Assembly (NCBI GenBank): GCA_963920765.1
Contig: OY987246.1
Span: 10,474,868-10,538,867, forward strand
Length of the DNA stretch: 64,000 nucleotides
From: Ulota crispa
Taxonomy: Eukaryota; Streptophyta; Bryopsida; Orthotrichales; Orthotrichaceae
Direction: 5' to 3'
Shown here piece after piece: positions 70-61,481 of the stretch. The first letter of the stretch is position 1; every line of letters starts with the position of its first letter. Both the position numbers and the translations under genes were made by a program. The notes beneath the pieces are model-generated. The model saw nothing but the letters and a program-made list of their open reading frames with translations, was not told where the DNA came from and searched no databases.

Positions 70-792
70 TTAACCCCTAAAGGACCAAAGTCCCGAGGGA
101 CTTTCAGGATTTTGGGCATGTATTTATGTCTGAATTACTTTGTGTAATTTTTTGAAATTTTTATGGAAGATGGGGAATTTAAAAATCCGTGTGAGCATCT
201 AATTTTTACCTCATATCAATATTTATTAAAGAAGTTAAAAATAAATTTATGAGAATTATAATTCAGCGGGCAGTCCAAAAACTTTTTTAAAATTTGCATT
301 TTTAAAAAGTAAAAATTCAAGGTTAGTTCTTTAGACTTACGTCTATGTGGGAAGCTTTGAATCATTCAATTCTAATTAATGAGATGAAAGTTATGAGAAG
401 TTTTAGTTTGTGGGTAGGTGTAGAGAATCTCAAAACAATGCCTACATGCAAACTAAAACTTCTCATAACTTTCATCTCATCAATTAGAATTGAATGATTC
501 AAAGCTTCCCACATATACATAAGTCTAAAGAACTAACCTCAAATTTTTATTTTTTAAAAATGCAAATTTTAAAAAAGTTTTTGGGCTGCGTGCCGAACTA
601 AAATTCTCATAAATTCATTTTTAACTTCTTCTATAAATGTCGGAAAGAGGAAAAAATTAGATGCCCACATAGATCTTTGAATTCCCCATCTCCCATAAAA
701 GTTTCAAAAAATCACACAAAGTAGTTTAGTCATAAGTAAGTGCCCAAAATCCCATTTGTCCCCAAAAAGGGGCTTGGTCCTTTAGGGGTTAA
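70..792. mobile_element. TTAA-flanked foldback element (family A type), 723 bp
   Basis: TTAA lies at 70-73 and 789-792. Between them the sequence starts CCCCTAAAGGACCAAAG and ends in the inverse. The whole element is one long imperfect hairpin: the two arms of about 340 bp match from the termini to a turn near 430, where GAGATGAAAGTTATGAGAAG at 383 meets its complement at about 460-480. There is no open reading frame of note. A terminal CCC with TTAA on both sides is the piggyBac-superfamily pattern. This is a non-autonomous derivative. The superfamily assignment is an inference from the ends. Confidence 0.85.
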
Positions 793-1018
793 GCATTCCA
801 TGAAAAAGTTAAACAATATCAAACTGGTGTCCATAGCATGTTCTTTCAGATTACTAGTTCAATCTCTGTTTTGAGGCATGCCTCTGCTGCAACCAACAAA
901 AGGAGTTAGTAAATAGCACAATGTTAAATTTTCTTGCTACATTCTTTCCTACCCCCTGTCATTTGTGTTTACCAACCTAATTTAATTTACTAAAACTTAA
1001 GACGAGTCTAAAGTGGAC

Positions 1019-1040
1019 GGATTAGTTCCTTAGGGGTTAA
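1019..1040. repeat. Orphan right terminus of a TTAA element
   Basis: The sequence CCTTAGGGGTTAA is a right end without a visible left partner. Its partner may lie left of the window, with the 70-792 element nested inside the same host. Confidence 0.4.
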
Positions 1041-1139
1041 TTGCATAGTTACTCTCTCTTTCAAAGAAGAAGGAAAAAAAAGAAAAAGAAAAAATATGAT
1101 AGAAGAACATGTGCTCTTATAGCATTAAAGAGTCTTTAG

Positions 1140-2581
1140 TTAACCCCTAGATGCCCAAGGCACCAGATTGTGATGTTCAAAAAATTTCAAAATTTTTTGA
1201 AACTCTACTGAAGGCACATGTTTTATTGTTTTCAGGTTTTTTTTTTGGAAAAGTTGCACGTTAAAGTTAGCTTCACTGTTCAAATTCAACTTCCTCCATA
1301 ACTTATTCTAGTTGTTTTTGGTGGAAGGTTAACTGCAAGCATACATTTTGTGTCATGAATAATGTTGTGAATATTGTCACAGAGCCTATGAGAAGTTGCC
1401 ACATTGAAAAGACACGCATCAAGTTGAGCAAAAGGAGATTTTCTTTGGGCACTCCCTTTGGCAATAGGGCCCTTTTGCTAAAATTTTGACATTTAACAAA
1501 ATATAAAAGTGCTTTTGGACTAATTACAATTGGAATATCTTTGTTATAGAAATTAGGATTCATTCACCGTTAAATTTTCTTTCATTCAATTTGAATTTTG
1601 GTCAATAGCTAACTGGAAAAAATTTCTTTGAATTAGGTGTTTGCACTTTAACCCCTAAGCGCCCAATCAACCATGTTTTGGTCGCTACCCGTTTTTTTTG
1701 GGCAACCCAAGACAAAAAAAATACTTTTTTCATTTTTTTTTTGTAATAGAAATTCAAGTCTACTTTCCAACTTAACTTGAATAATATCAATCCAAGTTAA
1801 ACTCCACCAAGGAGAATTTTTCAAAGTCAAACACTTCAACATTTGCTAGTGTTGTAAAATTTACTATTTCGGGAAACTAATGATGTTCTCTCCTTTCAAA
1901 AGATTGCATTTTGAAGTTTAGGATAGAATGTTTATTTTTAACCAATCATACCAAATTTTGAAATCTATGAGTAAAATTTGTAATTTTGGTGAATATTAAA
2001 TGGCAAATGCTTATAAATTCATTAAATAAAAATCCAAAACTTTTTTTGAATGTTTGACTATACGGATAGTTACTAAACATCATGATTTTTGTTTTCTCTT
2101 TTGAAGCAAACTTCATCAAAGTTACATAAGTATCATTTTATAATGCATTTATGTTTTGCCCTTACCCCCTTGGGCATTTAGGGGTTAATAGTTGCTTTGC
2201 AAGCTCAGTTGTGAAACTATGGTCATGGATTTGGAAGGGGGGCATTAATTTTGAAGTAACAACAATAAGCGCTAAAGCATCCTAAGTGGCTACTTCCCAA
2301 TTTTGTATCCAAAAGTTGCCAATTTACATTAGAAGTTTTGGACAACTCCAAAGAAAAGCAAAAAATTATATACTCATCATCATTCAATCACAAATATCTT
2401 AAAATCCGCATGGCCATTTTGGATTGTTTTTGGGTAGCGTCATCTAGAAGTCTTGAAGTTCAAGATTCAATAGTTACAATTTTGTTTTGATGTTTATAAA
2501 AATTTCTTACAAGGACAATTCAAAAACTTCAAAACTGCCTTCCAAAAAGAAGAAAAACACCCTTGGACATTTAGGGGCTAA
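1140..2581 (+). mobile_element. TTAA element, family C, interrupted by a family B element
   Basis: The left end is TTAACCCCTAGATGCCC at 1140 and the right end is GGACATTTAGGGGCTAA at 2565-2581, with the last TTAA mutated to CTAA. Removing the B element at 1648-2188 leaves about 900 bp, which matches in inverse orientation the family C copy at 26091-27979 along its length. One shared stretch begins CAAAAGCACTTTTA and another is the CCAAAATGG segment. No coding capacity was seen. The short open frames here are shadows. Confidence 0.82.
1648..2188 (+). mobile_element. TTAA element, family B, 541 bp, nested in family C
   Basis: TTAA at 1648-1651 is followed by CCCCTAAGCGCCCAATCAAC. The right end is TTGGGCATTTAGGGG followed by TTAA at 2185-2188. 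Two other copies are 30540-31093 (same orientation) and 22232-22776 (inverted). All share internal blocks around AAACTAATGATGTTCTCTCC and the stretch ending TTTTGCCCTTACCCCCTTGG. It is non-coding. Confidence 0.87.
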
Positions 2582-2989
2582 AGCACATGTAAGAATCCCA
2601 AAAACAACAAAAGGAGGATTTTATTATATATGCAATTTTTGTAGCGACGCAAAGGAGTTTCTAGTCTCAACATGCAACTAACTATGTACATATCAGGGAC
2701 GTAGGAGCATGTAGTGAGGGATGATGATTGCAGAAGGGAGGAAGAATTATAGAAAGATTTATCAAAAAAGCTGTTCCACTTATCAACCAGATTGATAGTG
2801 CTCTCCAAGCTTTGCAATTTTTCTTTGAGTGCTAGCCAAGACCGCTTTCGTACCAAGACCGTAAGCTTCATATGTTACTTCGCAACCATATTGGGGACAA
2901 TTTTCTCCTACTCCTCCACTACACCATTACTTTACCCTAAGGATTTCATTAGCTTGGTATAAGGTCTTACTCTTTTTTTTGACATAATA

Positions 2990-3129
2990 AGGTAACCGGC
3001 TCTAATGCCGACCATGCTCGTAATCCCGCACAAATCTACACCCTCAGTAGATTTGTGCGGGCTGAAATCTATTGAGGGTGTAGATTTGTGCTGGATTAGA
3101 AGCATGGTCGGCATTAGAGCCGGTTACCT
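2990..3129. mobile_element. 140-bp foldback MITE with AGGTAACC ends and TA flanks
   Basis: A near-perfect hairpin runs from AGGTAACCGGCTCTAATG to its complement. TA dinucleotides flank both sides (2988-2989 and 3130-3131). A longer related element is at 16868-17086, which shares AGGTAACC, the GACCATG-like block and the ACACCCTCAGTAGA-like block. The TA target suggests the Tc1/mariner group, but that is inference. Confidence 0.8.
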
Positions 3130-3507
3130 TAAGCTTTGCTAGCGTTTCTCAGTGCAGAGCCTCCACCTCCCCTTCAGTCCAAAACCAACCAAACCCCATT
3201 GCTCACGTGATAACTTAAATCCTGCTTTCAACTGTGTGCTTCAACCCTGGGGGACTCCAGCATTATAATAAGCATTATAATATGGATTCCTGTTACTGGA
3301 GTTGTAAAATAAAGTAAAGTAAGATTTCTTTCTACTATGCATTTCTATTCATGGAATTGAATGCATGCTGACGTTACATGGAACTGTTGAAGTCTTACTG
3401 GTAAGGTGGTAACAGGCTTAACTGTTCAAACTGGCTCTCATCAAGGGGGCGGTTTGCACTACGCTCCAAGTTCAATTAAATTCCCAAAACTTGATTGGTA
3501 CAAAAAG

Positions 3508-5181
3508 TTAATCCCTGAACGCCCCAGGGGACCAAAATGGTCTTCACAACATTCATGCCTGTTTAACCCCTAAAGGACCAAGCAAAGTTTTCACCAAAAA
3601 ATCTCCAAAACTGTCATTTTTAGAGCATCAACCAAATTTGAAAACAAAAACGTTTTTATGCATATGTGACCATAGGATCTTGTAGAGGAATGGTTTTAGA
3701 AGATGTGGAAAAAAATTCAAAGTTTTTCACCACATGGATTGGAAGATAGAATGGTTTGAATATTCAAAAACATCTTGTGAAAAATTGGGCAGCTACACTT
3801 CAAAAAGTGAAATTCCTAAGGAAAAAAGGACATGTGGGTGGTACTGATTTAAATTCCTTATTCCACTTAAGTAAAGGACATGTCAAAATTGTTTCAAATC
3901 ATTTGGAATTGTATAATACATGAAGAAAAATTAGTAAGTAAAAAGAAGTAGAGAATGATTCAAAACACTAAATTGTTAAGAATTTAATTATGGAAATGAA
4001 AAATGTCAATCCCAATGGTCATAATGTTGTAATAAACAATCTATATCCTTTGGTTTTGTTTTTTTCCAAAATGTTGAAAATTGAGTAAAATAAAGGACTT
4101 CAAAGTTTATTTTAGAGTAGAGAATCCATAACTGCCTACAAACAAAAAAATCCTCATAACTTTCATCTCATTGATCAAAATGGAATGATTCAAAGCTCCC
4201 TCCATTCACATAAGTCTCCTAAACCAATTTATAATTTTAATTTTTGAAAAAAATAATTTTAAAAATCTGCCCAGGCTACCCCACAAATGTTAAAAACAAC
4301 ATATTAGGCCATAACTTTTTACTCATAATTTCAAATGTCATGAAATTTATTGCATATGAAAGATAAACCTCGTTCCCACATTACGTTAAAATTTCAGCCT
4401 AAAATATGAAAAGCTCCAATCACAAGTACCTGCCCAAAATTGCTATGTTGCTAAAAAATCGGATATAGTCCATTAGGGGTTAAGGTATTGGATCTAATTT
4501 TTTGACCTTGCTATAAACTAAAATTACCAAGGTATTCATGTGGTTCTTGCAAGTGGAGTTATGGCAAGCAAGCCATATGTCATACAAGTGCCTCAAGAGC
4601 CTTAGTTGGATGAAGCACCATACGGGGCTTGGTGTCAAGCAATGTTTTACAAGCTACAACTAATCAATACTCATTGCAAGCTTCCTTGCATGTGCTTTGC
4701 GGTTGCAGGAAATTCACTAGTAAGGGTTCAAGCATGTTCTAAACCCTTATCGAGGCAACCCTCACCAATTGTGCCGGTCATTGTTTTCCATGCAATAGCA
4801 AATTGAAGCCCTAAAACTTAGCATACAAAGAAGTGCAATCTTCAATAACTTACAAGTGTGTGCATTCACATCTAATCTTGCTACTCAAAAAAGTTGAGAT
4901 GAATGAGGGGCTTATAAACTTTTGTAAAAATCATTAAGTAGCAATTACCTACCAAAAAGTAAGATTTTGCCATCACATGTTGTTGATCAAATGTTATAGT
5001 CCCCCATCTCTCATGGTCAATTGTTCCCAAAAGGTGCAAGTCATTTTCTAAGTTGGTGTTCCACTATTTTCAATGGTCACTTTTTGTGAATCATTGAATT
5101 GACTAAGATATGATGCATCAATGTTGTAGGTCTCTCAAAGCCCTAATTTTGGTGAAAATGGCATGGGCGCTCTTGGGTTAA
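3508..5181. mobile_element. Putative degenerate TTAA element hosting a family D copy
   Basis: A weak left end, TTAATCCCTGAACGCCCC at 3508, and a weak right end, GGGCGCTCTTGGGTTAA ending at 5181, are inverse of each other in the terminal CGCCC block. Subtracting the D element at 3563-4483 leaves about 750 bp, a plausible element size. No second copy was found, so this pairing is tentative. The 4484-5164 stretch carries no recognisable gene. Confidence 0.4.
3563..4483 (+). mobile_element. TTAA element, family D, 921 bp
   Basis: TTAACCCCTAAAGGACCAAG begins at 3563 and TTAGGGGTTAA ends at 4483. A GATCTTG box at 3676 lies 113 bp from the left end. The block CATAACTTTCATCTCATTG lies at about 4154. 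Relatives are 43293-44801 (inverted) and 53674-55317 (same orientation). It has no coding sequence. Confidence 0.87.
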
Positions 5182-7994: not shown

Positions 7995-10015
7995 TTAACC
8001 CTTTAAGGCCAAGGGCGCCCTGGCCCAGGTTGCTCTTGGCAACATCAATACTTAAACTAACTAAATTTAGCAGCATTGCCACCAAAAAATCATGCAACTA
8101 ATTTTTTTTGAAACTTTACAATATTAAAATTGGAAATTTAAACTTTTTAGTGGTGTTTTTGGCCACTTGAGATAAAAGTGAAAATCATATTTGAGATCAC
8201 TAGTTAGCAACTTTTTTTCATGTTTTTTCAATAAATGTTTAGATCTTGTTAAGATCTCCCTGTATAGATGGAATACATACTACTAGATTTATTACTTGGT
8301 TAAATCTTACAAGCTTAGTCCAAATGACCACAAAGATTATAACACATCCATGCCAGGTTGAGGGCGTCATTATTTCCAAAAGTAGAGACAATGTTGTGAG
8401 GTCAAATTTGTGTCTTTTTAGAGCCCAAACGTGAATTTGAGATATTCCAATGTGGTAGGTGACCTTCATACCAAGCACATGAATTTTTTTTCAATTGGAT
8501 ATGAGTTTGGACAAAAATTTCAAGCATTGCAAAGTGAGGGGGTCTTTGTATAGTTTTTATTCACAATTCTTGAGCTTGACTTACTTCGACTCAAGTTTTT
8601 GAATTCATTACTCTTCCAATAACAGTGTACATGGGTTCATTTGATCCAAAATTCCCGTGCCCTTAGACATCATTTAGACGTCACTTACAGCCGTAGCATG
8701 CCCAAAGAACTATTTAACCCCTAAAGGACAAATTGTCCTCTTGGGGGACAAATGGGATTTTGGTCATGTACATACTGTGTACCAAAATTGTCTCAATGTT
8801 TGCTTAGACGCCAAGTTTTTTTCAATTTCTCCACTATGTATAAGTGGCATTTTATCCTCAAATTTTTTGTGTGTGATCTTTGTGCAATCATGATCAAGCA
8901 TACCAAGTTTCAATTACTAAAAATCAAAATCCTATTTTTGGTAAATTGTAGTGTGTCAAAATCAAGAAAGTTGATTAAAAAACATTGGTAATGAATATTT
9001 AAGATTTGATTGCATGGGTATGTTGGAGACATCCATACGCACATCTTTGCTTCAAACAAATATTTCTAAAAAAATCTAAAACTATTTTAATTTTAGGCCA
9101 AATTTAGAAAAATTTATAATTCTTCATGAAATCTATTTTTTGGCAAAATAACTCATATGTTGTGATTAAGTTTGTACCTTTAAACATGACGATATGTTTA
9201 TTTTGCCAAATAATAGATACCATGAAGAATTATAAATTTTTCTAAATTTGACCTAAATTAAAATAGTTTTAGATTTTTTTGGAAATATTTGTTTGAAGCA
9301 AAGATGTGCGTATGGATGTCTCCAACATACCCATGCAATCAAATCTTAAATATTCATTACCAATGTTTTTTAATCAACTTTCTTGATTTTGACACACTAC
9401 AATTTACCAAAAATAGGATTTTGATTTTTAGTAATTGAAACTTGGTATGCTTGATCATGATTGCACAAGGATCACACACAAAAAATTTGAGGATAAAATG
9501 CCACTTATATATAGTGGAGATATTGAGAAAAACTTGGCGTCTAAGCAAACATTGAGACAATTTTGAGATGAAAGTTATGAGAAGTTTTAGTTTGGTGGTA
9601 GGTGTGAAAAATCTGAAAACTATGCCTACACACAAACTAAAACTTCTCATAACTTTTATCTAATCAATTAGAATTGAATGATTCAAAGCTTCCCACATAT
9701 ATGTAAGTCAAAAGAACTCACCTCAAATTTTTAATTTAAAAAAATATAGTTTTTAAAGAAGTTTTTGGGTTGCCCGCCAAACAAACATTCTCATAAATTC
9801 ATTTTTAACTTCCTCAATAAATGTTGGAATGAGGTAAAAATTAAATGCCCACACAAATATTTGAATTCCCCATCTTCTATAAAAGTTTCAACAAATTACA
9901 CAAAATAGTTTAGCCATAAATACATGCCCAAAATCCCATTTATCCCCCGTAGGGACAAGTGGTCCTTTAATGCTAAAATTGACCAAATTTGGCTCCCTCG
10001 GCCCTAAAGAGTTAA
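7995..10015. mobile_element. Degenerate TTAA element hosting a palindromic TTAA element
   Basis: TTAACCCTTTAAGGCCAAGG at 7995 pairs with CCTCGGCCCTAAAGAGTTAA ending at 10015. The ends are inverse over about 20 bp with some mismatches. Removing the nested 8714-9976 element leaves about 760 bp. It is non-coding. No other copy was recognised in the window. Confidence 0.6.
8714..9976. mobile_element. TTAA element containing a palindrome of about 780 bp
   Basis: The left end TTAACCCCTAAAGGACAAAT starts at 8714. The right end at 9959-9976 (GTGGTCCTTTAATGCTAA) is mutated. Positions 8783-9160 and 9190-9565 are near-identical inverted arms: the same 60-residue open frame reads out on the plus strand at 8752-8991 and on the minus strand at 9357-9650, which is a shadow of the palindrome and not a gene. 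Positions 9566-9960 carry a family A right half, itself with a smaller hairpin at 9566-9660. Confidence 0.8.
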
Positions 10016-12414: not shown

Positions 12415-12417
12415 TTA

Positions 12418-13200: not shown

Positions 13201-14113
13201 TTAACCCTTAAAGGATCATTTGTTCGTTCAATGGACAAATGGGATTTTGGCGAGGTACCTACAGCCTCAATTTTTGTTTTGATTTTTTGAAACTTTTTTT
13301 GAAAATAGAAAAACACATTAGCTTTTGGGGAATTTAATTTATATTCCAATTGATGCAGAGGAGCAAAAGTTATGCCCAAATAAGCACAAATTTGGGGACT
13401 CCGGGCAGCAAAAAAATTCTTATAAAAACTTGAATTTTTTTTTCTTATAGACTATATGTTTGTCTACATCTGAAGCTTTGATTCATTCCATTTGGACTAG
13501 TTATCAAAAAGTTATGGACAATCTTGTTTTTTGGGCAATTCAAGCATCTTTTTGAAAAAATAACTTATAAACTTCATTTTTAAATGCAAGTATAACATTT
13601 TTTCATAAAAAAATGTGTTTAAGAGTGTGAAGTTTGCTTTCTAGAACAATCTCACCATTGGGACTATTGCGTTTCAATTCCATTGCAGGGTTATTTAGCA
13701 ATTTAAGTTTTTGTTCAATCTCATACCTTCTTTTACCTAATGTTTTTTTTAAAGAATGAAAATTTATTATTTTTTGTTGTTTTTTTCCCAAGATAACCAA
13801 CTCAACTTCCCACCATGCAAAAATAGAATTCCAAACTTTGCGGTGCAAAAAAATTTAGCTAAAAAAGTTCAAAGTCATAATCTAGTTAGGCAAGGTGCAA
13901 AAAAAGCTATTTTTTACACTTTAAATGCAAATATCTTCCAGTCTACGCGGTCAAAGTTCTTGAGTTTTGTATGACACACTCCTATAATAGTCTAATACAA
14001 GATCCTATGGTCAAAAATGCAAAAACATTAATTTTCAAACTTTTTTACTCTTTGCCATAGAAGTGGCAGTTTTGAGTGTCTCAAAATAAAAGCCATGGTC
14101 CTTTAGGGGTTAA
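13201..14113 (-). mobile_element. TTAA element, family E, 913 bp, inverted
   Basis: TTAA lies at 13201-13204 and 14110-14113, with CCCTTAAAGG and CCTTTAGGGG inner ends. A CAAGATC box at 13998 lies 109 bp from the right end. It is an inverse relative of 23247-24177 and 33707-34675 (shared blocks: ACACTCAAAACTGCCACTTC, ATCCTATGGTC, and the TTGCAATGGAATTGAA segment). It is non-coding. Confidence 0.85.
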
Positions 14114-14127
14114 TATGAATAGTGTCT

Positions 14128-15056
14128 TTAACCCCTAAAGGCCCAAGCCCTTTTTTCTGTGAAAGTCACTCAAAACTGCCACTTTTGGGGGAATAAGTAG
14201 AAAGTTAGGAAAACATGTTTTTTTGGAAAATCCAACCGTAGGATCTTGCCCTAGACTATGGCGGGTACTTGTGGGAAAAAAATCAGCTCATTCTAAATGT
14301 ATGTGAGTGAGATATTCACATCTGAAGTCAAAAAAAAAGTTTTTTCCCTATTGCCCAAAAAATTGAAGAGCCTTTGACCTCTCCTATATCAAAAAATTTG
14401 TTCTAAGCAAAGTTGAAGTTTATTTTTCCCATGTAGAAGACCAAGTTAGGTAAGTGTGGGAGAATTTTCAAATGAATTGGAGGTGTGAATCACACTTTGT
14501 AAAATCTGGCAATGCCGTAAGGCCATGATATTTGCATATATGTACACTAGAATTGGAGGATTTCTGTAAAATTGAGAAATCTGATTTACTTTGATCCAAA
14601 TGGTGAAAACCAAAGAATTTTAGTCTACTACAACTCAAAAAAAAAAAACTCAAGGACCAAATTTTACAAGGGGCAAAAGGAATGGAGGTTTGGGAATCCC
14701 ATACCTACACAAAAACCAAAACTTCTCACTCATAAATCAAAATTGAATGATTCAAAGCTTCCCACATTTGTAAAAATCCAAAGAATCAATTTCAGATTTT
14801 TAATTTTGAAAAATGAAAATTTTAAAGAAGTTTTTTGGGCTACCCGGACTGCCTACACTCCCTTGTTGTTCATAAATTCATGCATAACTTCTTCAATAAA
14901 TGTCAAAATGAAGAAAAAATTAGATGTGCATGTACATCTTTGAATTCCCCACAATCCTCAAAAGTTTCATAAAACTTATAAAAATTGGTTTAGTCGTAGG
15001 TACATGCCTAAGGTCCATTTGTCCCCCAAGGGGAGACTTGGGCCTTTAGGGGTTAA
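14128..15056 (+). mobile_element. TTAA element, family A, 929 bp, left copy of an inverted pair
   Basis: TTAACCCCTAAAGGCCCAAG starts at 14128 and GGCCTTTAGGGGTTAA ends at 15056. A GATCTTG box lies at 14242, 114 bp from the left end. It is nearly identical to the inverted copy 15811-16770: an identical 46-codon stretch reads from both. A third, more diverged copy is 26929-27890. The 61-residue open frame on the minus strand is repeat sequence, not a supported gene. Only 14 bp separate it from the E element on its left. Confidence 0.88.
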
Positions 15057-15810: not shown

Positions 15811-16655
15811 TTAACCTCTAAAGGCCCAAGTGGCCCCTTGGGGGCCAAGTGGGGTTTTGGGCATGTACTTACAGCTAAACTACTTTGTGTGATTTTCTGA
15901 AACTTTTATTGAAGGTAGGGAATTCAAAGACCTACGCGCGCATCTAATTTTTCCTTCATTTTGACATTTATTGAAGAAGTTATGCATGAATAATTGAAAA
16001 AAAAGGGAGAATTGGGCAGCTCAAAGAAATTGCATTTAAAAAAAATAAAAATCTGAAATTGGTTCCTTAGATTTATATATAAGTGGGAAGCTTTGGATCA
16101 TTCAATTTTGATTTATGAGATGAAAGCTATGAGAAGTTTTGGTTTGCGGGTAGGTATGGGATTCCCAACTTCCATTCCTTTTGCCCCTTGTAAAATTTGG
16201 TGCTTTAATTTTTCAAGCAATTTGTGCATTTGTTTTTTTGTTTCCCAAGTTGTAATAGACTAAAATTCCTTGGTTTTCACCATTTGGATCAAAGTAAATC
16301 AGATTTCTCAATTTTACAGAAATCCTCCAATTCTAGTGTACATATATGCAAATATCATGGCCTTACGGCATTGCCAGATTTTACAAAGTGTGATTCACAC
16401 CTCCAATTCATTTGAAAATTCTCCCACACTTACCTAACTTGGTCTTCTACATGGAAAAAATAAACCTCAACTTTGCGTAGAGCAATTTTTTTGATATAGG
16501 AGCGGTCAAAGGTTTCTGAAATTTTTGAGCAGCAGAGAAAAAACTTTTTTTTTGCACTTCAGATGTCAATATCTCACTCCTCTACATCTAGAATGAGCTT
16601 TTTTTTCCCACAAGTACCTGCCATAGTTTAGGGCAAGATCTTGTGGTTGGATTTC

Positions 16656-16690
<35 letters not shown>

Positions 16691-16770
16691 TACCATTCTA
16701 CTCATTCCCCCAAAAGTGGTAGTCTTCAATGATTTTCATAGAAAAAAGGGCTTGGGCATTTAGGGGTTAA
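15811..16770 (-). mobile_element. TTAA element, family A, 960 bp, right copy of an inverted pair
   Basis: TTAA lies at 15811-15814 and 16767-16770. It is the inverse of 14128-15056 and nearly identical to it, with a 755-bp spacer between the two. A run of about 30 A residues at about 16658-16687 makes it slightly longer. The open frame at 16224-16415 is the counterpart of the one in the left copy and is not a supported gene. Confidence 0.88.
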
Positions 16771-17336: not shown

Positions 17337-18078
17337 AGGAGAGTGCACCCATACTTGATCATTTAACCCTTTAACATCCAAAGGACAAAAAAAATTTGTC
17401 CCCTCACTACCCAAAACATGCCCTCCAAGATTGGAATAAAGTTTTTTCATCCGGTTATTTTTAGAAGTGGTCATGGAGATGTGCTCCATTAGGTAATGTC
17501 AAAAATAGCCTCATTGAATGCCCCATATTTTTAAAAACTCCAATTTGTGAGAAGATTCACAAACGCAATGTAAGATTCCATGCTTCCCATTTTGCAATTT
17601 TAGTGAGGGTAGTATGTACTTTTTACTTTTGCAACTTTTGGGGATAATATTATATTGTATGGGCACATGCCGCATCATTGTAGAGCAATGTAGAGCAAAT
17701 GTAGTAGAGCAATCACAAGGACTAGCCAAGCGTTCAAGGGTTAAGCAATTCTATAATAGACTACAAAGAGTCAAAGATAACACATATATTTCCTTGTAGG
17801 AAGATAGGAAACATCGGGATTGTAAGTTTTTTGTAGTTTTATTTGCAAGAATAGCTTTATTGTGAATTTTTGGGAGTGAAAAAGTGTTCCAAATCCATGT
17901 CCAATCTCTAGACTCTTACATTTTTTCCTTAATGAAAAAATTACTTCTTGCTTGTTGTGGCACTAGAAGCAAAGGACATGTATCATGACTTTGTTGTGAA
18001 CACAATACTACCACTATTCAAAATTCCCTACTCTACATATTAGGTATGGGACCTGGTTGACAAAGGATACCTCCACCT
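17337..18078. mobile_element. TA-flanked AGG-ended element (family K) carrying a TTAA element
   Basis: The ends AGGAGAGTGCACCCATA and (minus) AGGTGGAGGTATCC are flanked by TA at 17335-17336 and 18079-18080. After removal of the nested element 17363-17744, its sequence aligns with the K copy at 58132-58528, including TTAAGCAATTCT, GTAGGAAGATA and GAATTTTGGGAGT-like blocks. Its length without the insert is about 360 bp against 397 bp there. Confidence 0.75.
17363..17744. mobile_element. Short TTAA element, 382 bp
   Basis: TTAACCCTTTAACATCC at 17363 pairs loosely with GCGTTCAAGGGTTAA ending at 17744. The paralogous K element at 58132-58528 lacks it and has a single TTAA (58158-58161) at the corresponding position. 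This shows that the element is a discrete insertion with a TTAA duplication. It is non-coding. Confidence 0.8.
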
Positions 18079-38611: not shown

Positions 38612-39269
38612 GGGATAAATTTCATATTCTAAAAGAATTGAAGAGCGCTTTTTAAAATTTCTCTTTATTTATTAACCAAATCAACAAAAATGTAAAATCT
38701 CCTAAAATATTTTTTGAATCTTTGAAAAATATTTAAAAATCTTCAAAATATTATAGAATCTTGTTTAATTTTTTGGATCCTTTGAAATTTTGATTGTATG
38801 ATTGCAACTTTTTAGTTTCATAACTATTCAAAATTTGATGTTTTTTAAAGCTAGCAAACTATGGAGGCTATGTTAACCTAATAAGAGTTTATGTTTTGAA
38901 AAAAATAAAACTAATTTTTTTAGAAATGAAGCCACCTTCACTTGCAACAATTATTTTGAGATTTATGTATTTCAGTCAAGAGTTATAAACAAAAGTCAAA
39001 GGGGTGAAAATAATAATAATTTTTTAAATTTCTGCACACCTTATTTGATTTTTGCTCATGACTTTTGATTAAAGATTTGAAATCTGAAAAAAATATTGGA
39101 GGTGAAAGTATACTACATTAACCAACTTTTGGTGATTTCAAGTTTTTTGAAAAAAAGTCCTTTGCAAGATTGAAATAGCCTCCAAAGTCTATTGGCTTTG
39201 CAAAGTAATTAAAAATATTCACATGTAGAGTACAAAAATAAATAAATCATATACAAGTGGGCACATATA

Positions 39270-39432
39270 AATGTGAGTGGTCTAGTGGTCATGAGTGGTG
39301 GTGGAAGGGGCTTGTGTGTCAAGCCTAAAGTCTGCGGTTCGACTTCTAGCCTTGGTGCTTCATGCCAATGCCCCTTGCTCCGGCCACAGCCGCACCACCC
39401 AGCCGGGCTTGGTGCTTTAATCTTATTTTTTT
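39270..39432 (+). mobile_element. tRNA-derived SINE
   Basis: A box A-like GGTCTAGTGGTC at 39279-39290 and a box B-like GCGGTTCGACTTC at 39334-39346 are spaced as in a tRNA-derived RNA polymerase III promoter. A GC-rich body follows (TCCGGCCACAGCCGC), ending in a T run at 39426-39432. The GC-rich body contrasts sharply with the surrounding AT-rich sequence. Length is about 160 bp. Confidence 0.75.
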
Positions 39433-40355
39433 GCATATAATTTTTTATTTTAAAACTTGAAACTTTAAAAAAAAATTGTTGATAAAAAACAACACATAAA
39501 TTACAATTGGACACACAAATGAACAACAAAAATTAACAAAAAAACAACATACTCTCACTAGTAGAAAATTGTGTTGAGGTCAACATAAACTACATGATTT
39601 TTTCATGCTTCTAACACAAATTTCTGCATTAGAAGCATTAAAACATCATGTAGTTTATGTTAAGTCAACATAGTTTTTGACAAGATCTTGTCAAAAAGTA
39701 TCCCAATCAACTTGACCAATCAACAGATGAAACCAACACAGTTGAAATTCTGTTGACTTTCTATCAAAATTTCTACTAGTGATAATGTAGTCTACTATAA
39801 GATCTTACAATAGGTTGTACGAAGATTTCATTTCCTTTTCTTTTTTTTCTTTTTTTCTTTCCTTTCTTATCAAAACGACTCATTTGAATGTTTTTTTGGT
39901 GAAACATATTCAAAGGCCTTTAGGGGATAAAACAAAAATAATAATTCAAATGCAACAGTTGGTAATCTGGCATTGTTGTTTGCTTTAGGTAGGCCCCCTT
40001 ACTCCCCTCAGCCCTCACCGCTCTAGCTTGAGGGAGGGAGCTTGAATGTCTTTCTTCCTTAGGGCACTCCAAATCTTCAATTTATCTTGCAGGACAAGTA
40101 GTTCACTGGAATAGATAAGCCGGACAAGATAAGATCTGCAAAATACATTCAAACTAGAAATAAAAATGTTTGTATGGACATATAAATTTCTTTGGAGATG
40201 TTTATTTTGCCAAATTTTATAGAAACTTGTATAGTATGAGATAAGGTGTTTATGTTAAAGAAAGTTTACAACCAATATAATAAAATAACTCTAACTTTGA
40301 AATCCCCAATTCAAACTTTAAACCTTTACACCCAACACCATTTTTAGTTGATATA

Positions 40356-40599
40356 TTAACCCTTAAAAGACTGAGCTACTATAATGTACATAGTATGTAC
40401 ACTGCCGTATAATTGACATTTGCTACCAATAAAAGGTTTTAATTTGGGATCTTGACTACCTCACTAGAAAAACATTGATCTATATTTTAACTTCTTTATT
40501 GATCTCAAATGTAATAAAAGTGTGGATGCATTCCAAATACAAGAAAAATACCCCATATTGTAGTGGTCGCAAATGACTGCTTTGTCCTTTAGGGATTAA
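40356..40599 (-). mobile_element. TTAA element, family G, 244 bp
   Basis: TTAACCCTTAAAAGACTGAG at 40356 and TTTGTCCTTTAGGGATTAA ending near 40599. It is the inverse of 42767-42999 and of the G part of 33488-34682. The TTAA inside its left terminus (40363-40366) is the empty counterpart of the E insertion site at 33707. Confidence 0.8.
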
Positions 40600-40633
40600 G
40601 CTACAAAGTTGAATGTTGTATTAGTGAGGAAAT

Positions 40634-40744
40634 AGGGTTTGAGGGCTTGTTCTTAACGGTTTGAGGGCTTGTTCTTAACGGTTTGAGGGCTTGTTCTTAA
40701 AGGTTTGAGGGCTTGTTCTTAATGGTTTGAGGGCTTGTTCTTGA
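40634..40744. repeat. 22-bp tandem repeat, five units
   Basis: The unit GGTTTGAGGGCTTGTTC plus five bases repeats five times with one-base differences between units. The array lies in otherwise unremarkable sequence. Confidence 0.9.
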
Positions 40745-42766
40745 TTTGAGTGCTTACTTCATTTAAAAGTTTTTTTCTAATTTGTTGTCAAACTCCTCTT
40801 TTGAATCCCTTTAATTCCTTTACTTCTAATTGATATATTTTCTTTTTGGAACTTGTTTGTTGAAATTGCAACTCCAAACAATGGCAAAATGTGCTTCTTG
40901 GATTTTAATGAGGATAATTTCGAAAACTCAGTGAGTAAATGAAAAAAGAAGAAAATATAGATATTAAAGAAGGAGTTTAATTCTTAAGTATGAACAATTG
41001 GGTAACCAATAGTGATTTTGAATATAACTTGCTTGTTCCATAAACTTTAGAAAACCCAACACATAATAGACACCCAAATCACGTACCTTCTAAAATTTGG
41101 ATATGGTCAACTCTTTTACTATGGTAGACATTGGTTTAGTCTTATTTAGAAGTTAGCAACAAAATGACTTGCACAAGAAGCTCCTTTTATATTTTTAGAA
41201 ACTTGCAATGATGCTTTACAACTAGCAACCACTTTGTAAGTTTATAGCCTACATTGAAGATAGTTGGCAACCACCAATACCCTTCTTTGTCACAATGGTT
41301 GCAAGTTGGGTTTCCATTGCATGAGCATTTAAAGGGCACTTATTTGAGTATTATTAAATTATTTGTATTCAATTCTTTGCACTACTATACAAGTTGCATT
41401 AGGATGATTGGTAGATAATAGCATCACTCTTGCCAAATTCTTTATTGCTGAATTAGATGAAGTATATATATGGAGTTTGATAATAACTATGTAAACGAAG
41501 CTTTCAAGGAGCAACTTTATTTCTTGTGGCCTGGTGAAAAAAATAGATTATAATTTACTTGTGCTAATAGAGAAGATTTATCACATTTTATTAAAAAAAA
41601 GTACATAAACATTATTCGACAATGTAGCTATTTATATATGATTCAATGAACTAAAAAATCTTTGTCCAGTTCATAGCCAATCATCTTTTTATTTCTTCTT
41701 GTTGTATGAACTTGCTCAATCCAATTTTTTCTTGACGTGATTGTCAAATCTCACCTCCTATAAATGGTAAAATATCGGGCTTCATAGACTTTCTTTTTGA
41801 TATATGTTGTATTCTAGATTAAAAATGATATGTTTTGCATGTACAGTACACACAAATTTTGGATGACGTGGGAAAATTATTTATCAAAACTAATTTATAA
41901 ATTTATTGTATAGGCATAAAAGACGTGGAATTTTTCTTTGAAAAAGATTATAGTCAAATTTACAATCTGCCATGCAACCAAAATCTTTCTATATGGCATT
42001 ATTTGCAAAGATTTCTTCAAGACTGTGTCTCAAAACTGTAGATTTGAATCCTACCACTTAACTTTAGATTTGAATTTATTAAAGCTTTGACATATATAAG
42101 ATGTAATTTGTCAATTTTTGATTGATTAGCCATGGAGTATTTTTTTAAAGAAAGACACATGACATTTCCATTGAGGCAATACATCTATTTTGATCCTTTA
42201 AAAGGTGGCATATCATTATTTTTGAAGGTTTTCTGAGTTTTAAGACAAATTTGAATTTGATAATTATCTATTGTAATGTACGTTTGTATTTGTTTGTTGG
42301 AAATGAATTGGCATTGTAAAGGCATTCTTTTTTGCCATGTATCATCAAAATTCCATATTTGAGTAGTTTTGAACAGATCAATATCTAAAAAATAAATGTC
42401 TTGCCATAAGGTGAACAATATTTGAAAGTTTTGTCAACCTATAACCCTTATAAATTGCATAGGGAGATTCCTCAGTAGGAAGCTAATCCATGTTTAATCC
42501 CAAACAATGCTATTTTCTGAGCATAAAATGGTGAGCTCATGAGCAATATTCCAAGATTTTGTGAACGGGAACCAATTTTTAGCTCAATATCAATGAAAAA
42601 ACTTAAAGAATAGCAAGTATTTCAAAAGATGAACATTTATAATGCACAATTATAAAGCCCGATGGGCCTATGTTCACATGTATAGGTGAAATTTAATGTT
42701 TTGACAAAAGATTTAGGTTCACAAGTCACTGCTCATGGATCCTCACTCACAATTTTGTATCCCCCG
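40745..42766. other. Gene-free AT-rich stretch
   Basis: No gene or paired element ends were recognised. The 77-codon open frame at 42185-42418 has no familiar motif. Confidence 0.45.
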
Positions 42767-42999: not shown

Positions 43000-43310
43000 A
43001 GAGTGTATTTTTGAATCATGCGCATGAAATAGAATTTTTTTTGACTTCCATGGCCAAATCTAGTCCAAATTTGCCTTCATAGTTTAGAGTTTATTAAATA
43101 TGACATAAAATACAAAACTAGAAAATGCTAGTGATCTCCTTGCTCATTGCACTGCTTGTCCATCGTATCAAGTTTTCTATAAGAAGATTCAATAAACATC
43201 TATGTTGATCGATCTGTATAATTATTTAAAATACAAAAATGAAAAATCAAAGAAAATAGAAAATTAAACCATGATAGAAAGACCTCGGCAATTAACCCCT
43301 AAAGTTCTGG

Positions 43311-43481
43311 CGCTAGTAGAAAACTTGGTTTTGTTGTTGTTTTGGTCATGATTAGGATACTTTTTTGTTGATGTTTAACATAAATCAGTTAGTTTTCCAT
43401 TAATTTTTGTTGAACGTCAGTTAAAAAGTATCCTCATCAACGCAACCAAATCAACAAAAAAAAATGAGCTTTCTACTAGTG
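43311..43481. mobile_element. CACTA-type MITE, 171 bp
   Basis: The ends CGCTAGTAGAAAACTTGG and CTTTCTACTAGTG are inverse, with one mutation in the left CACTA. The interior folds (TTGATGTTTAACAT...). It resembles the segment ending at 36850. It is nested close to the end of a D element. Confidence 0.72.
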
Positions 43482-44199
43482 TGAACACCTTATTTTTGGC
43501 AATATAACAATTTTGGGCAGCTCACTACCAATGAGTTTTTCATTTTGTTCCTTTGACATTTTTGCACATTGTGTGCCCAAGGAGTAGCTTTAAGGTCCAA
43601 CAAATTTTATAACTTTTAACTTCATGGTTCAAAAGTTATTGCAAAATATGTTGTTTTCTTTGCTTGGCAGGCAAACATAGAACTTCTTTAAAAATTATAT
43701 TTTAAACTCTCTTTTTTGAAGTTGGTTTTTTAGATTTATATATACATAGGAAGCTTTGAATCATTCCATTTTTATTAGTGAGATGAAATTCATGAGGAGA
43801 TTTATTTGCGGGCAGTTATAGATTCTCTACTCTAAAATAAACTTTGAAGTCCTTTATTTTACTCAATTTTCAATATTTTAGAAAAAACAAAACCAGAGGA
43901 TATAGATTGTTTATTACAACATTATGACCATTGGGATTGACATTTTTCATTTCCATAATTAAATTCTTAACAATTTAGTGTTTTGAATCATTCTCTACTT
44001 CTTTTTACTTACTATTTTTTTCCCATATGTTGTGTAATTCCAAATGATTTGAAAGTTTTCAAGTGCATACCATACTTGCTTTGAAGAACAAACCCAAAAA
44101 ATTCATACAAGTATGACCTTGTGAAGTGCAATTGCCCAGATTTTTGTAGGGACAAGAAATGGCTTTTTGTTAATTCAAACTCAAATATCTAACGATCTA

Positions 44200-44626
44200 A
44201 GGTAGGAGCACCCCTCTTTGTGGGTGTCCCCATCCCTTGGACCTATTGTGTTAATAATTGAAATTATATGTTAAAAAATTGGTTATGGGTACTTAAGTGA
44301 TGGTTATGGGTGACAAAGTGATGATTATGGGCGACAAAGTGATGGTGATGGTTATGGGTGACAAAGTGATGGTTGTAGGTGACATGCATGATAGTTTTGA
44401 GTGCCCCATTGCATTGTTTTTAGCATCTCCTACACATTACTATGGAATTTCAGTGATTTTGGACTTTGGAAAATCTTTGTGAACAAATGCTTGCGATTGG
44501 AACTTTGATATTGATGCCAATATTTTTAGCTTCCTCTTGCTAACTTACAATATTTTTTTCAAAGTTTACTAATTGATTTTCCTACTCCAAAAACCCTTAG
44601 TTTCACGCTTATGGGTGTTGCTACCT
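44200..44626. mobile_element. TA-flanked AGGTAGGAGC element (family H), 427 bp
   Basis: The ends AGGTAGGAGCACCCCTC and (minus) AGGTAGCAACACCCATAAGC are flanked by TA at 44198-44199 and 44627-44628. The D paralogue at 53674 has only one dinucleotide (CA) at this site. A related copy is 45709-46022. It contains an irregular GGTTATGGGTGACAAAGTGA tandem block at about 44290-44385. Confidence 0.8.
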
Positions 44627-44801
44627 TACATGGTGAAAATTTCTGAATTTTTTCTCACATCTTTGGATAATAGTGTACTACAAGATCTTATGGTTGCATG
44701 TATCAAAAAATGTTCCTTTTCTAAAATTTGGTATTTGTACTAGAAATATCAATTTTGGAGCAATTTTGGTGAAGAACTTGGCTTAGGACTTTAGGGGTTA
44801 A

Positions 44802-50535: not shown

Positions 50536-51444
50536 TTAACCCCTAAAATTCTTTTGTGTTTAGAGGTCCAAAATTGCTTCAAAATACTAGTCCCCAAAGC
50601 AAGGTCAAAATCTTCATTAAAACTTACTTTTAAACAAATCCAATTGTAGGATCCTTTGGTTGACTTGCACAAGTACATTGTCCCAAAATTTCAGAATGAA
50701 TATCCCTACCAATTGCAAGATCAATGTGTCTAGTCTTCAAAATGTAGGCTTTTTTAGTCCTTCCAGAAGGTGAAGTTTTGATTTTCAAACTTAAGAGAAA
50801 AACATGTATGTTGTTTTTCTTGTGCAATTTTGGCAATATGTTGGAAAACGGGTTGAAAGCATATATAAAAAAATTTAACCAAACTTTTTTTTGGATTCAT
50901 TTTTAAAGAAGTTGTAAAGTGAAAGATATTGATGAATGAAAGATATAACTAATATGCTAATAAGCTTTGGAAGAATTTGAAAATTGTTAATTCCAATGTT
51001 GAGAATGCTCTAATAGACAATTAGTAACTTTCATTTTCATTTTCATTTGAAAATTTTCAAAATTGAGAGTAAAAGATAACTTTATATGTTTTTCTACCCT
51101 CTTCCTACCTTCATTGCTTGCAAAATAAAACTCCTTTTAACTCTTACCTCATTATTTGGAATTGAATGATTCAATTTTTTTTTGAGTAAGTATCAATTTA
51201 TACAATTTGATAAATAAATAAAGAAATAAGAATATATTTTTTGCTGCCTGGTTTGACATTGAAATTGAAAAAACTTTATAACTTTTGCATTACTTATCGG
51301 AATAACACAAAATAAAGTTTCACATGTAGATTATGATGAGTAGCATCCATCCTAAAAATTTCATAAATATTTCCAATGAAAACAATAGAGCTTGCCCGAG
51401 TTCTCATAAAGCCCAAAGTGGGCTCCTTGGTCTTTAGGGGTTAT
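50536..51444 (+). mobile_element. TTAA-type element, 909 bp, diverged
   Basis: TTAACCCCTAAAATTC at 50536 and CCTTGGTCTTTAGGGG at 51425-51440, followed by TTAT. A GATCCTT box at 50650 lies 114 bp inside. The GGAATTGAATGATTCAA block lies at about 51158. It is an old copy of the A/D/E group. Confidence 0.72.
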
Positions 51445-51921: not shown

Positions 51922-51978
<57 letters not shown>

Positions 51979-52294
51979 CTGGTTTGTACATTGTGTCATA
52001 TGATATGATTGCGTGATAGAGGTCAAATTTGACCTCTAAAATCTTCTCTATATGCACATTGGGCACGGATTCATAAGGGCCCTTTAGAGGACTCAAATTT
52101 CTCCTAATGAATTCACCTCAAGTTCCAATATTGATGCAAACATGGATCTTTTTGATGGCTAGAGAATACCATGTACAAAACATGTCTAATGAACAAAATA
52201 CTCCCAATGATCAAAATACATCCAATGATCAAAATACACCCCATGAATAGAATATGTCCAATGGACAGAATACGTCCATTGGACCACTTAGGGG
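51445..52294. repeat. Gene-free stretch with AT microsatellite and 19-bp degenerate tandem repeat
   Basis: An (AT)n tract of about 50 bp lies at 51925-51976. AATGATCAAAATACATCC-like units repeat about five times at 52188-52278. An orphan right terminus (CCACTTAGGGGTTAA) ends at 52298 and shares its TTAA with the element to the right. Confidence 0.7.
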
Positions 52295-53252
52295 TTAACC
52301 CCTCATTGCCTAAGGTCCAAAGATGCCTAACAAAATCTTTGTTTTTCAAGTATTGTAAGTCTAAATGTCAAATGGGTATGAAAATTTCAACCATATGATC
52401 TTGTAGTGTGCATGTTGCAAATCATGTGGATCAAATTTGGGGTCATTTGACCACATAACTTGGAAGATTATAGTGTTTTGGTGTTGAAAAAAGATGCTGA
52501 AATTTTTCTAAAAACACATTTGGAGGTGAATGTCAATTTCTAAACTTGTCAAATGAAAAATATTTAACATGTAAAGTGATCCAAAATCAATATACAAACA
52601 TATTGGTGACAAAATTTATCATTCAATAGGCTCATTGTGTTTGCAAAATTGTTTTGAAATGTCAAAAAAAACTAAAAATAGTAGCAAAAATTCTTGTCTA
52701 TGAATAAACCTCCTAAAATGTTTCTTATTCATTCATAACTTCTTGGATTGATAACAACAAAAACTTGACTAGTATGTGCAACTTTTCCAACAAATAAAAA
52801 AACTAAAATCAAATGTTGTATGAAGAAGTTATAAGCCACCAAAGTTCATTCTAATGAAAAAAATTGAATTTTGAACTTTGAGTTGCTCCCAAACATTCAA
52901 AACAACTTGGATTGACATGAAAATGTCACCACAAGACTAGATTTTAAGGATGACAAAACCCAACAAATTCTATTGAAAGCAAACATTTCATAAAAAAGAT
53001 ACAAGTCCCCAAATTTGTAGCCATCACAATGTAGTGTGATGTACTCAAATTAAACTTGTGAACTTTGAATGGTTTTCACAAACTCAATATGTCTTACATT
53101 GATCTAAATTTTTTATCTAGACTAGTATGTGCAACTCCTCCAACAAGATTGATCGAATTTTAATTATACATGCAAAATCACAACATTTCAAATTGTATTG
53201 CCAAGGCATTAGAGGATACTTTCTATCCCCTTATTAGGCAATGAAGGGTTAA
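52295..53252. mobile_element. TTAA element, 958 bp
   Basis: TTAACCCCTCATTGCCTAAG at 52295 and TTAGGCAATGAAGGGTTAA ending at 53252 are inverse over about 18 bp. A GATCTTG box lies at 52398 (103 bp inside). The interior is built from repeated TAACTTnTTGGATTGA modules (about 52738, 52905, 53097). It is non-coding. Confidence 0.8.
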
Positions 53253-53485: not shown

Positions 53486-54028
53486 TTAACCCTTGAGTTC
53501 TTTGATTACGTTTCACCCAAAACACTTAGAATGAGCCGTTTTGATAGCAAAGGTAAAAATTTAATAAAAAATGATTTTATTTTATGCAATTTACTGTAGG
53601 GTTTAGTAGTGCACTACTTCTGCACTATGCTGGAGTAAAAAGATGAAAGACATTTGCCACATAGATTGTGAGATTATCTCCTAAAGTGTTTTTTGATCAA
53701 TTTTTCACCAAATCTGCTGCAAAATTGTCATTTCTAATACAAGTACCAAATTTTTTAAAACGTCTATTTTTGAACACATGTAATTGTAAGATCTTGTAGT
53801 ACACTAGATTCAAAAGATTTTTAAAAAATTCAGAAATTTGCCGTGCAAGTTGTAAGGTATTTGAGTTGGAATTGACAAAAAGTCATCTTTTGTCCCTGCA
53901 AAAATATGTGCAATTGCACTTCAGAAAATCACATTTAGTGTGATTTTTTTCCAAAATGGTTGTGGTAACTCTTTGGATTAATTTTTCAATGCAAGTTGGA
54001 TACACACCCAAAAAGTTTAGGAGAAATA

Positions 54029-54438
54029 TGAGCCCTCCAAGAACCCCCTACAGAGTCTCTAAAGAGGTCTTAAGATATGTACTTACTACAACAAACAAAT
54101 CACTAATCCCCTATTTCCGCTCACCCTTTGAATTCAAAACAACCATGAAAATTATATTCTTATGTTATCCCAATTGGACAAAAACTATGGATACAAATGT
54201 ACAATAAGACCATAAATTCTACATTACTCTATTTGAATATATAAGTGATATATTTGGATCATGACTAGTGAGTACATTTACGTATTTTATGAGTACAATG
54301 CTCTTTTTATTGTTTTGGGTTGTACATGTAGCTTAGGTCCTTCATACAAGGTAGCAATAAGGGTGCCTTTTTCTTGTACTCAAGCTAGGCAATTAATAGC
54401 TTGGTTTGTCAAACCTTATGGGGCTCTTGGAGGGCTCA
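54029..54438. mobile_element. Element with 19-bp inverted ends nested in family D, 410 bp
   Basis: The ends TGAGCCCTCCAAGAACCCC and the inverse of TGAGCCCTCCAAGAGCCCC are nearly perfect. Other D copies lack the sequence. The target duplication is not evident and the superfamily is unknown. The short open frames here have no known motif. Confidence 0.65.
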
Positions 54439-54696
54439 AATTTTTACTAATGTTACAAATTATTTGGAATTGTACAATGCAAGGGGAAAAAAAAGAAGTA
54501 AAAAGAAGTAGAAAATGATTCAAAACATTAAATTGTATAGAATTTAATTACAAAAATGAAAATTGGAAATTCCAACGAGAATAATGTTGCAATAAACAAT
54601 ACATATCTTTTGGTTGTCTTTTTTTTTCCAAAATATTGAAATTTGAGTTAAATACAAGACTTTGAATTTTGTTTTAGAGGAGAGATTCCTCAACTA

Positions 54697-54962
54697 AACG
54701 CCATATTTGTTAATTTGGGGAACTATGTTTGAATTTGGGACTTTTGCAGGTTTAAGGTGATCACATTAAACCCAACTTTAGGTTTAAGCAACATTTTTTT
54801 GGTACACATGCCCTCACCTGAAAGGAGGAATTTGCAAGGGAAAAAATCTTAGTGGCTCAGACTGAATCTGATACCTTTGAATCTAGTTTAAGGTAACGTT
54901 TTGGGTTTAAGGTGAAGTTCAATTTAGGAACTGCGTTTTCCCAATTTAACAAATATGGCGTT
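54697..54962. mobile_element. Foldback element nested in family D, 266 bp, ACTA flanks
   Basis: The ends AACGCCATATTTGTTAA and the inverse, with ACTA on both sides (54693-54696 and 54963-54966). Absent from D copies at 3563 and in the mosaic at 37683. Related to 18994-19121. The interior has repeated GGTTTAAGGTGA-like blocks. Confidence 0.72.
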
Positions 54963-55507
54963 ACTATCAGCAAACTAAAGGTCTCCATAACTTTCATCTC
55001 ATTAAGAAAAATGGAATGATTCAAAGCATTTCAACATACATATAAATCTAGAAAACCAATTTCAAATTTTTATGCCATAAAATTTTGATAAATTAACACT
55101 GCCCAAGGTGCATGAAATTCAAAGAAAATCACATATCATGCAATGACTTTTGAATTATGTAGTCAAAAGTTATGAAAATTGTTGGGCCTTAAAGCTACTC
55201 CTTGGACATGTCATGTGTGAAAATTTCAAATAAAAAGAGAATGAAACTCCATTTGTAATGAGATGTTCAAAATTGCTATGTTGCCAAAAAAACGCAGTTT
55301 GGTCCTTTAAGGATTATATAGTTTGAAGTGAAAAATAATTTTTTTGGGGGCATTCAAATTTTAGGTAGCTCCAATTTGGGAAGGATTTTGTACTAGTTGA
55401 TTTCCATGTTTTGCTTAAACTCTTTTAAATTTATTTTTTAAATAAAGCCGGCCATATGTGAAATAAATTTCATAGCATTTTGAATTGGAGAACACATACT
55501 ACAAAAG

Positions 55508-55552
<45 letters not shown>

Positions 55553-55971
55553 TACTTCAAGAAAATTCTTATACAAAGCTGTTTCTTCAACAATTTTTGG
55601 TTTCCACATCCAATAATTTTTCCAAAAATGTGAATGATGGAGTTTTGGATTTTAGCTAGCTTTAGATAAAGGGGAAAAAGGGAAATTGGCCAATAAATAT
55701 CTTTGACAAGCTTGATCAACATAAGATTACAGTTGCCAAAGGTGAAGTGAAGGGCAATAAGCAAAAATAATTGTCTTCATGGAATGAGGTTGGGTCCAAA
55801 TATTATAAGGAAGTAGAGTTGTCCCTCAACCTTTGGGCAAGATCCCAAAATTTCAGATTTCATGTAAATAAATGTGCCTGTACTACCCTACAAGCAAGCA
55901 TATTTACATGTTCCAACATAATTATTTTTGTACAAATCAAAATGATTTGAAATTGTTGCATTGGAAGGCTA

Positions 55972-56675
55972 CACAGATAATGGTAATCAGTGTTGGCAAC
56001 ACTGATTACAAACCCCAACATTAAATGTCAACAACCCTCTTAATGTTACCAACACTAAATATCAACCTAACACTATTTGTCAACTATTGCAATTTTTGGG
56101 AGTAAATCTTTTTTACAAGTTTACATTTAGTGTTAGAAAATGGTTCATTTTTATTACAACAAAAAAACATAAATTAAATTCATGAGTGAATATCTAGACA
56201 ACTATTTGGCACAAACTACAAACTTGGGCCGGATTGAGTTTGTCCATTAGATTAAAATCATTGTCACCGTTCATTGATGAAAAATGATAGAAATAATCCA
56301 AAAAATCCAAAAATCCAAAAAAATTCCAAAAAAAAGGGTTAATTTTTTTATTTAGTGTTATAATCTAATGTTCCCAAAGTTCCCAAAGAAGTTCCCAAAG
56401 TTCCCATATGACGTTCCCAAAGTTTCCAATGAAGTTCTTAAAGTTCCTATATGACATTCTCAAAGTTCCCATATGATGTTCCCAATGTTCCCAATGACAT
56501 TCCCAAAGTTCCCACATGACGTTCCCATAGTTCCCATAGTTTGGAGGAGGCAACAAAGCATGATGTGCACAAAAAGAAGGCAACTCTAAATGCAAACTAG
56601 TTGAGATTTAGAGTGAGTGAAGTTAAAGTGTAGGTAACACTATTAGTTCCATAACACTAAATACCATTATTAGTG
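55972..56675. mobile_element. CACTA-type element nested in family J, 704 bp
   Basis: The ends CACAGATAATGGTAATCAGTG and the inverse of CACTAATAATGGTATTTAGTG, flanked by TA (55970-55971 and 56676-56677). The J paralogue reads through with one TA at the site. It contains an irregular 22-bp tandem array built on GTTCCCAAAGTTCCCATATG at 56370-56545. It is non-coding. Confidence 0.78.
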
Positions 56676-56778
56676 TACTCCTTGGGCACACATCATGTAA
56701 AGCTCTTGTGGTAATATGTTTATTATTCTATAAATACTAGATATTGCCAATAAACATTGTTTGGTCCTTTAGGGTTTA

Positions 56779-61262: not shown

Positions 61263-61264
61263 TA

Positions 61265-61479: not shown

Positions 61480-61481
61480 TA

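Follow-up and report, generated by a model that had tools for sequence, protein, structure and literature searches.

Which transposon superfamily do the numerous short elements of the window belong to, and which enzyme moved them? The window, i.e. the whole stretch of 64,000 nucleotides analysed here, lies on contig C5 of a genome of 274.8 Mb in 157 contigs. A sequence-only reading of this DNA had proposed a dense community of piggyBac-like, non-autonomous elements with CCC-starting inverted ends and TTAA borders. Our data make it very probable that the elements are non-autonomous members of the piggyBac superfamily, resembling miniature inverted-repeat transposable elements (MITEs), and that they were moved by a piggyBac transposase whose gene lies elsewhere in the genome. 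This interpretation is deduced from a fixed TTAA border, a 4-bp target duplication, empty sites, loci of the transposase family PF13843 with TTAA and CCC ends, and a deletion derivative of a transposase element, and on these grounds the superfamily assignment of the earlier reading is supported.

Abundance of the ends and element families

On both strands of the window together, ends of the TTAACCCCTAAAGG type comprise 11 exact matches, 23 matches with at most one mismatch, 44 with at most two and 62 with at most three. A first-order Markov model predicted 0.0 ends at up to one mismatch and 0.9 at up to two, and at up to three mismatches the expectation was 8.3, with a maximum of 17 among 50 shuffles. 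A comparison sample of twenty 10-kb stretches (200 kb) at fixed positions on contigs C1 to C8 contained 61 TTAACCCCTAAAGG-like ends with up to two mismatches versus 1.5 expected, 5 of the 20 stretches being devoid of them. Genome-wide counts were set against control sequences, in this case the reversed 14-mer: the exact 14-mer TTAACCCCTAAAGG occurs 15,411 times (7,719 + 7,692) and its control once (1 + 0). The dense presence of TTAA-bordered piggyBac-like ends was thus confirmed for the window as well as for the genome. Scaling from the sample (20 exact, 61 tolerant and 1.5 chance matches) resulted in approximately 23,000 to 41,000 elements, which is an estimate and not a count. The termini of the elements start with CCC, in agreement with the CCC/CCY start typical of piggyBac. 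Additionally, the plant telomere unit CCCTAAA is contained in the terminus CCCCTAAAGG, a correspondence that may be fortuitous.

Self-alignment of the window recovered the previously proposed families A, B, C, D and E, with copies that are mostly 70-86% identical, so that the elements are not young. Family J has its basis in one 71% match over 678 columns, and the copies of family G are 80-82% alike, although the copy at 33488 is without a recognisable end. Several elements are nested: the family B element at 1648-2188 interrupts the family C element at 1140-2581, a family A element of 962 bp (26929-27890) interrupts the second C copy at 26091-27979, and the family D element at 53674-55317 lies within a J copy.

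A fixed TTAA border and a 4-bp target duplication

When 84 sites of the window and the 200-kb sample were anchored on CCCCTAAAGG with up to one mismatch, the bases T, T, A and A were present at positions -4 to -1 in 73, 72, 67 and 68 of the cases, and position -5 resembled the background. Across the genome, the outer base of the 14-mer is T at 15,411 sites and another base at 654; the outer T of the border is fixed genome-wide.

Since the elements are nested in one another, empty sites were available in related copies, including loci sampled elsewhere in the same genome (L-numbers). The screen comprised 241 candidate pairs that combined all left with all right ends and hence were mostly false; rows with junction gaps, from the same locus or with similarity confined to the ends of other elements were discarded. 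The B element at 1648-2188 is gaplessly absent from another C copy of the window, where the site reads TTTA, and from L015, where it reads TTGA. The element L011:1722-2609 is missing from three C copies, each with TTAA at the site, and L009:5904-6627 is missing from window positions 276-479 and from L013, where the site reads TTAA, the site of other copies reading differently. TTAT borders the D element at 53674-55317 as a direct repeat, and a single TTAT is present in two places where the host sequence occurs without the element, window 35711-35858 and L015. As TTAT is not palindromic, the four bases were duplicated, and the target duplication observed at this element is 4 bp. The TTAA target of the piggyBac superfamily was found, with a few sites deviating.

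Back-to-back elements sharing one TTAA or TTAA-like site were noticed at window positions 52292-52298, at L016 6847-6850, at L015 5957-5960 and at the 3' end of L045, as if a newer copy had inserted into the target duplication flanking an older element.

piggyBac transposase genes in the genome

A tblastn search with three transposase pieces (E up to 1) yielded no match in the window, as the sequence-only reading had stated, and nothing of note in the sampled loci (one row with E 0.75 in L018). The genome search for PF13843 (DDE_Tnp_1_7) transposases that it had proposed identified at least 116 loci with a best E-value of 1.3e-73, a lower bound because 116 of 528 candidates were scored, versus none in 14 control genomes. 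Stops interrupt the PF13843 match in 108 of the 116 loci, and in two of the eight stop-free loci a single continuous match spans most of the profile. Moreover, the catalytic motif MGGVDxxD, searched as a DNA pattern, was present at 19 places (mostly as MGGVD[VI][AG]D) versus 1 in the control, and a second motif, IATKKWW, at 21 places versus none, whereas the variant KGGVDxxD gave no signal, with 2 places in each.

Two stop-free frames matched the Pfam profile PF13843 with E-values of 1.3e-47 and 2.1e-40. Compared with solved structures, the first frame matched the piggyBat transposase 9c0f (3.6e-18) and the structure 6x67 (6.6e-16), which is listed as Transposase and which we take to be that of Trichoplusia ni piggyBac; the three catalytic Asp motifs align with those of 9c0f. 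All 13 similar database proteins belong to PF13843 and are 26-58% identical. A C-terminal cysteine-rich domain is visible in the relatives P0001 and P0003 to P0006 (alignment A2), a region outside the part covered by the two frames of the genome.

Three pairs of PF13843 loci in opposite orientation (C7:18203169/18223004, C2:36765124/36779670 and C10:676128/785346) have equal frame lengths and stops and look like recent inverted duplications. The repeat-rich window region 35859-37642 is 69-79% similar to the 5' side of L043, a part that lies next to a transposase copy without belonging to it.

Ends of the transposase elements and a deletion derivative

The 3' flank was read for eight transposase loci, and both ends for one of them, L045. 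All eight 3' ends consist of TTAA and a CCCTTTAANGACC-like terminus, and in the copies read the ends are located 1.6-2.3 kb 3' of the motif. The L045 transposase lies within a 5.66-kb element that extends from TTAACCCATTAAGGATC to TTGACCCTTTAAGGACC and is adjoined by a 969-bp CCCCTAAAGG element. The other 3' ends are TTAACCCTTTAACGACC in L031, TTAACCCTTTAATGACC in L041, TTAACCCTCTAACATCC in L039, TTAACCTGTTAACGATC in L029, TTAACCCTTTAACAACC in L030, TTAACCCTTTCACAACT in L036 and TTAACCCTTTAGCGACC in the locus at C4:3591922. A search for ends inside the 3-kb loci surrounding the first 19 motifs of the transposase produced three loose rows of 3 mismatches each and nothing convincing. The 23-mer end TTAACCCTTTAANGACCRTGGTC occurs 68 times in the genome versus 0 in the control. 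Its distance was determined for 127 transposase loci, i.e. the 116 loci condensed from 120 PF13843 rows and 11 loci with a motif only: an exact copy was located within 4 kb downstream of five loci (0.13 expected), in the correct orientation in each case and including two of the loci already read, and within 6 kb upstream of none.

Short elements share these termini. Ends of the type TTAACCCTTTAAGG are present in 935 exact copies versus 4 in the control, and among the matches listed they form pairs approximately 410, 630 and 912 bp apart. The 413-bp element of L055 matches the first 234 bp (70%, E 3e-21) and the last 112 bp (72%, E 2e-12) of the L045 element and is an internal-deletion derivative of that transposase element; the 912-bp element of L054 showed a weak match to the end of the L045 element (E 0.006). 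The elements are short, high-copy and non-coding, as expected for MITEs, and the origin by internal deletion was seen for the one CCCTTTAA-type element L055 and not for the CCCCTAAAGG families. Likewise, a DDE_Tnp_1_7 transposase with matching ends was found for the CCCTTTAA-type elements, whereas the CCCCTAAAGG families display a likeness of ends only: by eye, and with ambiguous bases counted as matches, the transposase end shares about 16 of 19 positions with TTAACCCCTAAAGGACCA(A/T), the commonest end.

Proposed mobilisation of the elements and alternative explanations

In the mechanism favoured here, a piggyBac transposase supplied from elsewhere in the genome would bind the CCC ends of the elements, excise them and insert them into TTAA sites, the four bases of which would be duplicated by the insertion. 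The CCCCTAAAGG families may have been moved by the transposase found here or by a sister lineage that is lost or so far unseen. The predominance of broken transposase copies and the 10-30% divergence among element copies suggest that most of the movement has ended. Several observations weigh against this interpretation. The flanks were read at eight transposase loci and both ends at one of them, and for L029, L036 and L039 the ends match loosely, with 3 mismatches over 14-17 bp; 122 of the 127 transposase loci are without an exact 23-mer within 4 kb downstream. By eye, about 3 of 19 positions distinguish the transposase ends from the commonest ends, no transposase element bounded by exact CCCCTAAAGG ends came to light among the copies read, and no similarity beyond the ends was found between the window families and the transposase elements. 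Some gapless empty sites read TTTA, TTGA, TCAA, TAAA or TAGA instead of TTAA. As for the autonomous partner that had been postulated elsewhere, the genome contains at least 116 PF13843 loci, and the eight with a 3' flank read have TTAA and CCC ends there. As these transposase copies carry CCCTTTAA-type and not CCCCTAAA-type ends, the transposase directly paired with the most numerous families has either escaped detection or died out.

Kolobok and Sola3 elements also use TTAA, which by itself is not diagnostic of a superfamily, and the CCCCTAAAGG families might belong to such a group and resemble the piggyBac elements of this genome by coincidence. No long CCCCTAAAGG element was seen, as this explanation would allow, but the agreement of the CCC-starting ends with the piggyBac ends of the genome at about 16 of 19 positions and the short elements with intermediate TTAACCCTTTAAGG ends render it improbable. 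The sequence-only reading had named two findings incompatible with piggyBac, namely same-ended partners encoding a transposase of another superfamily and a duplication of TA only with the outer T and A belonging to the element, and neither was encountered. The latter corresponds to TA-targeting elements of the Tc1/mariner type, in which the inner A and T would form part of the ends and the flanking T and A would represent a mere preference. As TA is contained in TTAA, empty TTAA sites alone cannot discriminate between the two models; the excess of T at the outer position (15,411 versus 654), the direct TTAT repeat with TTAT in the empty copies, which already contradicts a TA duplication, and the PF13843 transposases with matching ends led us to reject this candidate, for which the probability is negligible. 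Within the piggyBac interpretation, the CCCTTTAA-ended transposase family could have moved the CCCCTAAAGG families in trans, with no separate sister transposase. The coexistence of similar ends in one genome is in favour of this possibility, which we nevertheless regard as rather doubtful: two or three end positions are consistently different and exact copies of the CCCCTAAAGG 14-mer outnumber those of TTAACCCTTTAAGG about 16-fold (15,411 versus 935), which rather suggests that the CCCCTAAAGG families had a partner of their own.

Further elements of the window

The end-pair listing comprised 44 paired rows, in which L002/L003 and L004/L005 each represent one place entered twice. Weak window pairs (e.g. 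17371-17647, 25097-25875 and 28173-29112) and mispaired rows (e.g. 27115-27890, 30540-33358 and 53674-54910) were left out; family pairing failed for the single ends 25097/25875 and 28173/29112. The 16 outer elements amount to 16.0 kb or 25% of the window. In addition to the nested copies, family A is represented at 14128-15056 (929 bp, exact ends on both sides) and 15811-16770 (960 bp), family B at 22232-22776 (545 bp, borders TCAA and TTGA) and 30540-31093, family D at 3563-4483 (921 bp) and 43292-44801 (1510 bp), family E at 13201-14113 (913 bp) and 33707-34675 (969 bp), and family G at 40356-40599 (244 bp). An E-like element of 931 bp with exact ends on both sides is located at 23247-24177, and further elements are present at 37683-38611 (929 bp) and 50536-51444 (909 bp, 87% like L008:1501-2422). 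A possible outer element at 7995-10015, the pairing of which is uncertain, has the ends TTAACCCTTTAAGG and TTAACTCTTTAGGG, the first resembling the ends of transposase elements, and encloses an end at 8714.

The 723-bp element at 70-792, with the exact 14-mer at both ends, is 84% self-inverted. Long self-complementary stretches were also detected at 8783-9565 (783 bp, 95%), 56979-57779, 2988-3131, 61259-61485 and 62998-63150; transcripts of these regions would fold into extended hairpins, a possible source of small RNAs.

Host markers and a neighbouring gene

The MIR166 family is known from land plants, miR536 from mosses and liverworts and miR396 from vascular plants. A miR166 19-mer was present at 4 places in the genome versus 0 in the control, and of two places examined one exceeded the Rfam threshold for MIR166 (63.8 versus 60 bits) and the other did not match. 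A miR536 20-mer was found at 4 places and a miR396 19-mer at none. The host suggested by these microRNAs is a land plant and probably a bryophyte. TTTAGGG arrays are located at the right end of contig C1 among the matches listed. On the minus strand of the window, two frames within 62179-63983 match Exostosin_GT47 (4.2e-38 and 5.1e-27) and are probably exons of one glycosyltransferase gene.

Relation to known piggyBac elements and implications

piggyBac is one of the main tools in genome engineering, and descriptions of it come for the most part from animals and from eukaryotes other than plants. The elements studied here share the TTAA target and the CCC termini with T. ni piggyBac and Myotis piggyBat, and those of the CCCTTTAA type also the DDE_Tnp_1_7 transposase, but they differ in their land-plant host and in that the copies are mostly short and non-autonomous, the transposase copies read being old and mostly broken. 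The piggyBac elements of small animal genomes likewise have CCC ends and mostly TTAA duplications, with rare variants such as TCAA, CTAA and TAAA, according to the available part of PMC10813416; the plant host and the TTAT duplication, observed once here and outside that variant list, set the present elements apart.

In the accessible section of PMC6890710, the PiggyBac line of the repeat table for the fern Ceratopteris has 1,230 entries with 122,417 bp and 0.00% of the genome, so that piggyBac has been named in a land-plant genome there as well. The use of the moth piggyBac element in plants is the subject of PMC10905368, as far as its available text indicates, and the corresponding part of PMC10619864 contains only the word 'piggybacking'. 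Among the matches listed, the open-access literature held no account of abundant native piggyBac elements in plants. According to the abstract of PMC10813416, insects, fungi and plants have all yielded piggyBac, with no detail in the passages seen; this argues against an absolute first.

We tentatively propose, as a scenario that is quite possible though not the likelier outcome, that piggyBac entered the bryophyte lineage, perhaps horizontally, and is now a main class of DNA transposons with approximately 20,000-40,000 short copies and several percent or more of the genome, which would make this the first land plant with piggyBac as a major repeat class. If a land plant possesses piggyBac transposases of its own together with many dependent elements, the host range of the superfamily would be wider and the question of its route of arrival would arise. 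Moreover, plant-native TTAA-specific transposases would become available for study, and repeats that genome annotation might otherwise leave as unknown would receive a name.

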